DNA of 46,928 bases from Chloroflexota bacterium (GTDB taxonomy: Bacteria > Chloroflexota > Anaerolineae > J102), in NCBI GenBank assembly GCA_013151415.1, contig JAADII010000187.1:1-46928 (forward strand), read 5' to 3'. Below, one piece after another: positions 5,012 to 13,946 of the stretch. Position 1 is the stretch's first letter. Every line of letters begins with the position of its first letter. The notes beneath the pieces were generated by a model that was given only the letters and a program-made list of their open reading frames with translations, did no database searches and was not told the DNA's origin. Both the position numbers and the translations under genes were made by a program.

Positions 5012-7162
5012 TTAGGGCGTCAGGGAGAGGGCCTGTCCCGAGGCGTTGGTGAGAATGGGCTGAACCAGGCTCAGATCGTCGGTCGCCGGCACTTGCAGCC
5101 ACGCCAGGATTCCAGAACCGCTGGCCGTAGAGCCGCCAAAGCAATAAGCGCCAACGCTGTTGCCCTCTTGCAGCGTGCTGCACACGGCATCCACTTGCAA
5201 GAATTCGCCCAATTGCACATCCTCGATAACAACGGCCTCACCGTCGCCATCCACCAAGTCGAACTGGAAGGCGGCAATGTCGCGGCCCGAGGCCATAACA
5301 GGAACCAGCATGTCGCCGTCATCCTGGCGCTGCGCCTCACCCAGCCAAATTCGATTCACGACCGGGGTCTTGCCAAAGAGGCCGGCGCGATCTTCGCCGC
5401 TTGCATCATCTTCGACGGCTGCGCTGTTGGGCGACTGGCAAGTCGCGCCCCAGTTGCCGGCCACCGCCATAATATCGACCACATCGATGCGTCCGTTGCT
5501 ATCCATATCCGCGGCGCTATCGTAGTTGGGGTCGCCGATCTGAGCGCCCCAAAGACCGGCCACGACCATGATGTCTGTCACGTTGACCATGCAATCGTTG
5601 TTGAGGTCGCCCGCCAGAGCCGCGCTGATGGAAATGGTGGTGTTGCGAACGCTAAGATTGATGGCCACGCCTTGCGTATTGGTGGCCAGCGCGTTTTCGA
5701 AGGTGATGGGGCTGGCGCCTGTCGCGACGGGCGTGAATGTGATGGTGGCCAAGACGCCGCTGCCATTTGCGCCGGGAGCGCTACCGAAGGTGAAGGCGCC
5801 GAATGACACGCGACCGGCTCCGTTGTCGATGTTGGGGCCAAGCAGGCTCGCTGTGCGACCGCTGCTGCTCAAAAAGTCGCCCAGGGTCACCGAGTTGACC
5901 TGCACAATGGTGGCGTCGAAGGCCAGAGAGACTTCAAAACTGGCCATGTCGGTTACGTCTTGGATCATCAGATCCACCGAGATATCGCCGCCGCTCATCG
6001 ACCCGCTGGCCGGCTCCGGGCTGAGGTGCATCAGGCCGCTGCCTGCACTGGGAGGAGGCGTGGGTGTGGGCGTTGTGGGCGTGGGCGTGGGCGTCACGGG
6101 AGTGGGCGTCGGCGTGACAGGGGTGGGCGTCACCGGCGTGGGCGTGGGCGTGGCGTTTTCGGTCTCGATTTTGGTGGCGATGCGATTTCCAGAGGCGTCG
6201 TAGTATCCCTCGGCGTGGACATAAGCGCCAACCTGAAGAGGACCATGCTGTTGCTCGAAGTAAGTGCTGGCTGTGGCCTGTACGCTCTGACCATTGATGA
6301 CCCAGGCGCCAATGAAACCGCCCGCAGGCATGGCGTCCACATTGCCGTAGATTTCCCATTTCTGACCACTGTCATCGCCGCCACCGCTGTTCTTCGCCTC
6401 TAACTTGGTGGCGATGAGGACGCCGCCCTGCCAATAGCCTTCGGCCTCGACATAACCGCCGACATAGAAAGATCCATGTTCTTGCTCGAAGCGGGTGCTG
6501 GCGGTGGTGCGCACTTGCTGGCCGCTAATGACCCAGTCGCCAACAAGGCCGCCTGAAGGCATGGACTCGACCACGCCATAGACCTTGCTTTCACCGCTGC
6601 TGTCGTCACCGCTTCCGCCTTTGGTTTCCAGCTCGGTGGCGATGAACACGCCGCCCTGCCAATAGCCCTCGGCCTCGACATAACCGCCGACGCGGAAGGA
6701 GCCGTGTTCTTGCTTGAAGCGGGTGCTGGCGGTGGTGCGCACTTGCTGGCCGCCAATGACCCAATTGCCAACAAGGCCGCCTGAAGGCATGGACTCGACC
6801 ACGCCATAGAGCTTGCTTTCACCATCGTTGTCGTCATCGTTTCCGTTCTTGGTTTCCAGCTCGGTGGCGATGAGGACGCCGCCCTGCCAATAGCCTTCGG
6901 CCTCGACATAACCGCCGACGCGGAAGGAGCCGTGTTCTTGTTTGAAGCGGGTGCTGGCGGTGGTGCGCACTTGCTGGCCGCCAATGACCCAGTCGCCAAC
7001 AAGGCCGCCTGAAGGCATGGATTGCACTACGCCATAAACTTTACTCTCGCCGTCGTCATCATCCGCCTGGATTGTGGCGACCGGCGTCAATGCCAATATA
7101 AGAGCGAATGCAAAGATGAGCCATCGGCTCCAGGTGCGCAGTTGAAGGGTTTTCAGGAACAT
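5012..7162 (-). CDS. Secreted DUF5666 x4 / cohesin / dockerin protein
   Basis: A 716-residue exported protein. A signal peptide (1-33, ending near I-Q-A) is followed by four DUF5666-like beta repeats at about 41-105, 117-181, 193-257 and 270-334, separated by acidic linkers. Next come a Pro-Thr linker (338-371), a cohesin module (about 377-514), a type I dockerin (517-574) with two calcium-loop repeats starting GDLNND and ADMDSN, and a shorter C-terminal cohesin-like segment (about 600-716). Cohesins bind dockerins, so self-assembly or docking to other cell-surface proteins is plausible. The start is fixed by a strong AAAGGAGG ribosome binding site eight bases before ATG 7162; the in-frame ATG at 7216 lies upstream of it. 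The first three repeats are almost identical in DNA, pointing to recent internal duplication. Ligand unknown. Confidence 0.87.
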   Translation of the reverse strand: MFLKTLQLRTWSRWLIFAFALILALTPVATIQADDDDGESKVYGVVQSMPSGGLVGDWVIGGQQVRTTASTRFKQEHGSFRVGGYVEAEGYWQGGVLIATELETKNGNDDDNDGESKLYGVVESMPSGGLVGNWVIGGQQVRTTASTRFKQEHGSFRVGGYVEAEGYWQGGVFIATELETKGGSGDDSSGESKVYGVVESMPSGGLVGDWVISGQQVRTTASTRFEQEHGSFYVGGYVEAEGYWQGGVLIATKLEAKNSGGGDDSGQKWEIYGNVDAMPAGGFIGAWVINGQSVQATASTYFEQQHGPLQVGAYVHAEGYYDASGNRIATKIETENATPTPTPVTPTPVTPTPTPVTPTPTPTTPTPTPPPSAGSGLMHLSPEPASGSMSGGDISVDLMIQDVTDMASFEVSLAFDATIVQVNSVTLGDFLSSSGRTASLLGPNIDNGAGRVSFGAFTFGSAPGANGSGVLATITFTPVATGASPITFENALATNTQGVAINLSVRNTTISISAALAGDLNNDCMVNVTDIMVVAGLWGAQIGDPNYDSAADMDSNGRIDVVDIMAVAGNWGATCQSPNSAAVEDDASGEDRAGLFGKTPVVNRIWLGEAQRQDDGDMLVPVMASGRDIAAFQFDLVDGDGEAVVIEDVQLGEFLQVDAVCSTLQEGNSVGAYCFGGSTASGSGILAWLQVPATDDLSLVQPILTNASGQALSLTP
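6356..7042 (-). repeat. Three near-identical 228-bp tandem repeats
   Basis: Inside the DUF5666/cohesin gene, three consecutive copies of about 228 bp (7042-6815, 6814-6587 and 6586-6356) encode nearly identical 76-residue units. Most differences are confined to the acidic linker. A fourth, clearly diverged unit follows at 6355-6161. The close identity suggests recent duplication or gene conversion, and short-read assembly could miscount the copies. Confidence 0.85.
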
Positions 7163-7576
7163 CGTTTTGGGACCTCCTTTCAGATATGGTCTTGAGAGTT
7201 GAGATTGAAATAGCATTCAGGAGTTGGATTCCGAAGTTTCATGACCAACCATAACCGTTTTTTCGATGATTGTGGTTAATGGACGGTCATCCAAACTTTA
7301 AGTGTATGTTAAGCGCATTTTTTCGAGATATGGAGTGGAGTGTCGGTCGCGTATTGCCATATTCTCCCTAAATCAACGCACCAACGCGGTTTTGGATACG
7401 GCTATTCGTCAAAAAAGTGGAGCCAATCTCTAATTTCGTACGCGAATTTAGAGCGAGACAAGGGCTTTTGGTAGGAGCACTTACGGAGCGAATGGGTTGA
7501 GTTTGCCACAATGGATGGCGGATTCGCCTTTGTTGCGCCCCATCAGGGCGCTCAGCCCATCTCACAGGAGCCCGCC
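7163..7576. other. Intergenic region between two divergent exported-protein genes
   Basis: This 414-base A+T-richer stretch holds no gene that I can support. It separates two divergent genes, so it should carry both promoters, but no clear -35/-10 pair stands out. An inverted repeat at 7428-7453 (CTCTAA-T-TTCG-TACG-CGAA-T-TTAGAG) makes an 11-position stem with one T-T mismatch, and could be an operator or an RNA hairpin ahead of the selenoprotein gene. A ribosome binding site ACAGGAG (7564-7570) precedes the selenoprotein start. Confidence 0.5.
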
Positions 7577-8731
7577 ATGACCCGCTCTTATTTATTGACA
7601 TGGCCGGTCGCGTGGTTGGCCTTTGCGTTTGTTCTCACCGCTTGTTATGCGAACGAACCGGCCTTTGTAGAGCCGTCTCCCACGCCCAAACCGGCCCAGC
7701 CGCAATCCACGGTCGTCGCGACCGAACCATCGACCGTTTCGCCCTCCACCTCGACTCCGGCGCCCACTCCCACGCCCGAATTCACCATCGTGCCTCTTCT
7801 TCCTTTCGACGCCATCCCCTCTATCGATGACCCCGAGTTTCTCTCGCCAGATGTTGCAGATACAGAATACAATGAAGAAGAGTTGGTGTTGGGCATTGAA
7901 ATCAATGGCGATGCGCGTGCTTACTCCATTCCATTCTTAAGCAGTCATGAAATCGTCAACGATGTTGTTGGCGGCAAGCCCGTCGCGGTGACGTGGTGAC
8001 CTCTCTGCTTTACGGGCATCGTGTATGCTCGAGAAGTGGACGAGTTTCCCGAGCCTTTAACCTTTGGCGTCAGTGGTCGCCTGATTATGAACGCGTTGGT
8101 GATGTATGACCGTGAGACCGAAACCTTGTGGAGCCAGATATTGGGGCGCGCGGTCGAGGGCGAATTGTTGGGCGCCCGCCTGACGCCTCTGGCCGCGCTG
8201 CAAACTACATGGGGACAATGGAAGCGACTGCATCCAGATTCATTGGCTTTGCGCAAGGGTTATAGTGGTCTTTATGATCCCTACGATGACTATTACCTTA
8301 GCGAGCGCGCGGGCGTGCTGGGGCGAGAAAATCGCGATGAACGGTTGCCTACGAAGGCGCGGGGTTTAGGGCTGGCGCTCAATGGTCAGGCCGCTTATTT
8401 TCCCTTTCAACATCTGTTGCAAAATCCCATTGTAAATGCCGAGGTGGCCGGAACGCCCGTCTTGGTGGTCTATCATCCCGCCACATCCACGGCGTTGGCT
8501 TTCAAGCGCTCGCTCGGCGATGACGTTTTGACCTTCGAATTGGATCCCGAAAGTGACGAAGCGGCGCCGGTGATGATCGATGCAGAGACCGGGAGTCGAT
8601 GGCGCATGTTTTATGGCGCGGCTTTCGAAGGCGCTTTGGCCGGGCAATCGTTGGAGCGGATCCCCGCCACCACCGCTTTCTGGTTTGGTTGGTCTGATTT
8701 TTATCCAGACACCTATCTGTACGCGCCGTAG
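7577..8731 (+). CDS. DUF3179 lipoprotein with in-frame TGA (predicted selenoprotein)
   Basis: Read through the TGA at 7997-7999 as selenocysteine (residue 141), this is one 384-residue DUF3179 protein. A lipoprotein signal peptide ends in the lipobox LTAC (C23), then comes a Pro/Thr/Ser linker to about residue 68 and the DUF3179 domain to the end. The parts on either side of the TGA are in the same frame and together make one complete domain; neither is complete alone. The stretch V-T-W-U-P-L-C places Sec where, as I recall, the family has Cys in a C-P-L-C/T motif. Cys144 is kept, so a U-x-x-C redox pair is possible. The domain's function is unknown; an extracytoplasmic thiol or metal role is inference. 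The start at ATG 7577 has an ACAGGAG ribosome binding site. A SECIS-like hairpin follows the TGA and a tRNA-Sec gene lies 5 kb away. An assembly error or pseudogene is the alternative reading. Confidence 0.85.
8004..8040 (+). promoter_or_regulatory. SECIS-like hairpin after the in-frame TGA
   Basis: The mRNA just after the TGA (7997-7999) can pair 8004-8019 with 8025-8040: 15 of 16 positions pair, four of the pairs being G-U, with one A-A mismatch (8012/8032). The apical loop is CGUGU (8020-8024). The loop begins 21 bases after the TGA and has a G at its second position. These properties agree with the bacterial SECIS model as I know it, which needs a G in the first two loop positions and a loop about 16-37 bases from the UGA. 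SelB would bind here. The pairing was found by eye. Confidence 0.7.
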
Positions 8732-13850: not shown

Positions 13851-13946
13851 GGGGGTGGATGCGTCCCGGTGGGCGCCCCGGTCTTCAAAACCGGTGGCGG
13901 GCGCTGCGTAGGCGTCCGCGGTGGGTTCGACTCCCATCCATCCCCG
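13851..13946 (+). tRNA. selC: tRNA-Sec (selenocysteine, anticodon TCA)
   Basis: A 96-nt tRNA with every hallmark of bacterial tRNA-Sec: an 8-bp acceptor stem (GGGGGTGG with CCATCCCC, one G-U), a 6-bp D stem (GCGTCC/GGGCGC) closed by a short CGGT loop, anticodon TCA in the loop CTTCAAA, a long extra arm (about 13894-13920) and a T arm with GGTTCGACTCC. The discriminator is G and CCA is not encoded. It lets the cell insert selenocysteine at programmed UGA codons. SelA, SelB and SelD must be encoded elsewhere. A predicted selenoprotein gene lies about 5 kb upstream. Confidence 0.96.

Follow-up and report, generated by a model that had tools for sequence, protein, structure and literature searches.

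A DUF3179 gene of a Chloroflexota bacterium with an in-frame UGA codon very probably decoded as selenocysteine

The window analysed in this work was the whole 46,928 nt of contig JAADII010000187.1 (GenBank assembly GCA_013151415.1) from a Chloroflexota bacterium of the class Anaerolineae. On its forward strand lies a gene of the DUF3179 family in which a TGA codon, the only one in frame, occurs well before the TAG that closes the frame (Table 1). An AGGAG motif is present about 9 nt upstream of the ATG. The sequence-only reading of this DNA had joined the two open stretches on either side of the TGA into one complete DUF3179 lipoprotein, and the Pfam comparison agrees: the read-through product was aligned to positions 2-292 of the 292 positions of the PF11376 model (cut-off 27 bits, E 7e-84), as expected for one full-length DUF3179 protein. 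A signal peptide followed by a lipobox was recognised by eye at the N-terminus, and the protein is probably lipid-anchored and extracytoplasmic. Among close relatives of the selenocysteine (Sec) type, a crude scan gave a lipobox-like motif in only 13 of 58, the start sites of these relatives being uncertain. In NCBIfam the product had no match above threshold; residues 13-67 gave a sub-threshold match to an unrelated selenolipoprotein model. We also scanned the window for other UxxC or CxxU frames and obtained three more, all implausible by context. The divergent upstream gene (5012-7216, reverse strand) encodes a secreted protein; judged by eye, it has three or four repeats, near-identical and each about 70 residues long, and after them stretches that resemble cohesin and dockerin.

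Table 1. Coordinates in the window of the DUF3179 gene, its parts and the tRNA-Sec gene
Feature	Position	Strand	Remarks
Predicted DUF3179 selenoprotein gene	7577..8731	+	384 residues if UGA is Sec; TAG stop 8729-8731; PF11376 282 bits
Lipobox L-T-A-C, putative lipidated Cys23	7634..7645	+	
DUF3179 domain (PF11376)	7808..8713	+	Pfam match
N-terminal repeat half, with UxxC motif	7868..8236	+	hhalign of N against C half: probability 99.9, E 3.4e-34
UGA codon, predicted Sec141	7997..7999	+	82 homologues share the TGA in this column; 55 have Cys
TGC, putative resolving Cys144 of U141-P-L-C144	8006..8008	+	Conserved as Cys: TGA forms 81/82, Cys forms 55/55
SECIS hairpin	8013..8031	+	Stem 8013-8019 / 8025-8031, loop CGUGU 8020-8024
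C-terminal repeat half, UxxC replaced by Y-H-P-A-T	8342..8704	+	hhalign of halves
tRNA-Sec (anticodon UCA)	13851..13946	+	ARAGORN; Rfam RF01852 77 bits, cut-off 47

Homologues were collected by PF11376 searches of 61 relatives and of 400 genomes of the phylum, and by a scan of GTDB contigs with peptide patterns that avoided the UxxC site. The codon aligned with that of Sec141 could be mapped in 138 homologues, which are to be read as sequences and not as independent events, because a few loci contain the same gene twice. In this column, besides the TGA forms, 36 sequences had TGC, 19 had TGT and a single one, on a truncated contig (L142), had CGA. Hence the statement of the sequence-only reading that family members carry Cys at the position of the TGA was borne out by the alignment, as was the U-x-x-C arrangement of U141 and C144, given the conservation of the partner Cys (Table 1). 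The 54 relatives found by the off-site peptide patterns had TGA nearly throughout in the same column, and the TGA persisted in relatives with as little as about 30% identity. In divergent subgroups (L071, L081, L140, L089, L075, L080) the predicted Sec was found in the contexts Y-U-T-L-C-G, Y-U-V-V-C-S and Y-U-A-A-C-R, and the Sec-using diversity of the family would therefore be wider than W-U-P-L-C. Several genomes (that of L079, and G301 and G343, which are behind L073-L078) contained two or three Sec-type copies, which in L079 stand back to back on opposite strands.

Immediately downstream of the UGA the RNA can fold into a hairpin whose 7-bp stem begins 16 nt past the first base of the UGA and whose 5-nt loop lies 20 nt after it. 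In most Sec forms the loop is CGUGU, CGGGU or CGUGC, with a G within the first two bases. Of 74 distinct Sec sequences, 52 had every pair of the stem, against 0 of 48 Cys sequences. When the genes were recoded synonymously, each with its own codon usage, the number of fully paired stems averaged 1.4 and never exceeded 6 in 300 trials, and sliding of the stem partners gave 0. Compensatory changes among the Sec forms included G-C/C-G at offsets 19-31, G-C/U-A/C-G at 17-33 and C-G/A-U/U-A at 20-30. For the window gene considered alone, 6% of its synonymous versions also form a 7-bp stem, so the proof of the SECIS element rests on the family and not on the single gene. The exact 7-bp stem was absent from divergent Sec subclades (L071, L081, L083 group). 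Judged on the aligned family, a conserved and covarying SECIS hairpin is present directly 3′ of the UGA, in the TGA forms only.

The tRNA-Sec gene noticed earlier in the window was recovered by both ARAGORN and Rfam (Table 1), and the search of the host genome for selA, selB and selD found all three (558 bits, 331 bits with neighbouring segments, and 364 bits, respectively). Since the three genes are encoded in the same genome, an absence of the pathway no longer counts against decoding as Sec. The selD gene (L010, C192:8086-9021) itself has one in-frame TGA near the N-terminus, in the context A-G-U-A-S-K. UxxK is the active-site motif given for selenophosphate synthetase (PMC13188914); the context of the selD TGA fits it, and at least two selenoprotein genes are therefore predicted in this organism. 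We had also considered the presence of selB as a discriminator between genomes with Sec and with Cys forms. With a strict threshold, selB was found in 14 of 16 Sec-carrying MAGs and in 29 of 33 genomes that had shown Cys forms only; as most of the latter also have selB, the co-occurrence is not discriminating and was dropped.

Two other explanations of the in-frame TGA were weighed against decoding as Sec. One is that a nonsense mutation, or a sequencing error, broke an ordinary Cys-type DUF3179 gene. It would be in keeping with ORF calling under table 11, which gives two ORFs at the locus, 7511-7999 and 8021-8731. However, the same TGA recurs in the homologues across many independent assemblies and genera, and conservation of the hairpin is confined to the TGA forms. 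Moreover, comparison of the window gene with its nearest relative gave differences at codon positions 1, 2 and 3 of 0.18, 0.14 and 0.62 upstream of the TGA, and of 0.17, 0.12 and 0.40 downstream of it. The excess at third positions (about 2.4 to 4.4 times positions 1 and 2) on both sides of the TGA indicates purifying selection at the protein level on both halves, and we consider a broken gene highly improbable. The other explanation is that UGA is read genome-wide as Trp or another amino acid, to which the read-through of one in-frame TGA would lend itself. Against it, the aligned residue was Cys in 55 of the 56 non-TGA forms and never Trp; the TGA forms, read over the whole domain (about 275-315 codons), have this single TGA in frame and no other; and the Sec pathway of the genome is complete. 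An alternative code thus has very little to recommend it.

We therefore favour decoding of this UGA as Sec, with a probability of about 0.96, because Cys homologues exist, the TGA is conserved, the SECIS hairpin is confined to the Sec forms, and selA, selB, selD and tRNA-Sec occur in the same genome. Under the proposed mechanism, SelB, guided by the hairpin, would bring Sec-tRNA-Sec to the UGA, and ribosomes would place Sec141 there rather than terminate.

A maximum-likelihood tree of 101 domains required 3 changes between Sec and Cys, compared with 32 when the labels were shuffled. In this tree the Cys forms made up a supported clade of 39, and the rest consisted of Sec forms, including those of SAR202-cluster and Dehalococcoidia MAGs, together with two Cys rows whose placement was uncertain. 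Going by these sequences, the Sec-type proteins form within Chloroflexota a large group that is almost entirely Sec. The Cys-type proteins (C-P-L-C-N-[ST]-A) share with the window protein the domain, the column and the partner Cys, and the aligned ones mostly show about 35-43% identity to it; they differ in having TGC or TGT instead of TGA, in lacking the conserved hairpin and in their separate clade.

The sequence-only reading had hinted that DUF3179 was an unpublished selenoprotein family, and on this point it was wrong. DUF3179 (PF11376), with the motif UxxC/T, is listed in the selenoprotein family tables of two reviews (PMC9312934, PMC13188914), in which it is credited to Zhang and Gladyshev 2007 (NAR 35:4952) and to the deltaproteobacterial symbiont of Olavius algarvensis. 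As the family has been on the published list since 2007, no new selenoprotein family is involved; the window gene is very probably a new, well-supported member of a known one, and its U141-P-L-C144 matches the listed motif. Like the published cases it belongs to the same Pfam family, has the Sec in the same UxxC motif and has Cys homologues in abundance, whereas it differs in coming from Chloroflexota, from a large and nearly all-Sec group, and in carrying a lipobox. A literature search found no paper tying SAR202 to selenoproteins and seldom a mention of DUF3179 itself.

Comparison of the two halves of the domain by hhalign (Table 1) indicates an internal duplication of DUF3179, with the UxxC/CxxC motif kept in the N half only. 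An AlphaFold2 model built from 44 aligned sequences had a pLDDT of 96.8; the N half folded alone was poor (pLDDT 49) and was left out. In a VIA search both halves of the model were aligned to Rieske domains, the best Z being 8.8 over 94 residues (2qpz), and the 50 matches listed were all Rieske proteins or Rieske-containing oxygenases or complexes. Foldseek gave a best E of 0.04. Sequence searches were negative: Rieske PF00355 did not match the DUF3179 product at E up to 1, hhalign against Rieske profiles, also with a profile of the combined halves, gave no significant match (probability at most 10%), and a PDB sequence search found no relative (best E 0.22). In a weak and insecure hhalign register, Rieske motif II (C-x-x-H) falls over Asp108 (44/44) and Thr111 (43/44) of the model, which would make a Rieske cluster in DUF3179 unlikely. 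The UxxC site maps to the hairpin before Rieske motif I, according to the structural ranges and the same weak register. From sequence spacing CPLC had been a candidate for Rieske motif II (C-P-x-H), which was dropped because the VIA ranges and the hhalign register put it before motif I. In the predicted model, hence, the fold resembles two Rieske-like domains, such as those of 2qpz and 3c0d, apparently without the cluster ligands; from such domains DUF3179 differs in having no Rieske Pfam match, in the apparent replacement of the ligand positions, and in being duplicated and equipped with a UxxC motif.

Regarding function, Sec141 and Cys144 of the U-P-L-C motif would be a redox pair, located in the N half of the duplicated beta fold, and the protein would act on a substrate outside the cytoplasm. 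We propose a putative extracytoplasmic selenol/thiol oxidoreductase as its most likely identity, on the grounds of the U/C-x-x-C motif and of what Sec proteins generally do, a redox role of the two residues being likely. It is also conceivable, if rather improbable, that Sec is inserted but that the pair binds a metal or makes a structural disulfide or selenylsulfide instead of taking part in redox catalysis. DUF3179 is a family without assigned function, its predicted fold is like that of metal-cluster domains of the Rieske type, and 32 of 44 sequences retain the model's His54, which lies 17 residues ahead of the site. All this would suit such a use. On the other hand, His54 is replaced by Arg in 10 of the 44 and so is no constant ligand, published families mostly have their Sec at a redox site, and UxxC is named as a redox motif (PMC13188914).

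Across 53 Sec loci we found no conserved neighbours beyond DUF3179 fragments and a reading frame overlapping DUF3179, and neighbours local to a lineage occurred at 10 or fewer of the 53. On a plasmid of Thiothrix subterranea (L176), an annotated, uninterrupted DUF3179 gene adjoins genes for a GDCCVxC (seleno)protein, a DUF4395 protein and a thioredoxin-domain protein, which is a thiol-redox setting.

A practical consequence is that standard gene calling yields two fragments for the window gene, and likewise for its TGA-type relatives. For the family, the predicted duplicated Rieske-like fold offers a first structural handle. To a wider proposal, taken as a whole, we give even odds: DUF3179 would be a Rieske-like fold in duplicate whose Fe-S ligands were lost and which gained, on another hairpin, a new redox site of the U/C-x-x-C type, and the Sec form of Chloroflexota (SAR202, Anaerolineae and relatives, marine and other) would be an ancient lineage close to fixation, not an occasional substitution for Cys. 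The many Sec- and Cys-type sequences provide a clear example of an abundant bacterial phylum in which Sec is used stably.
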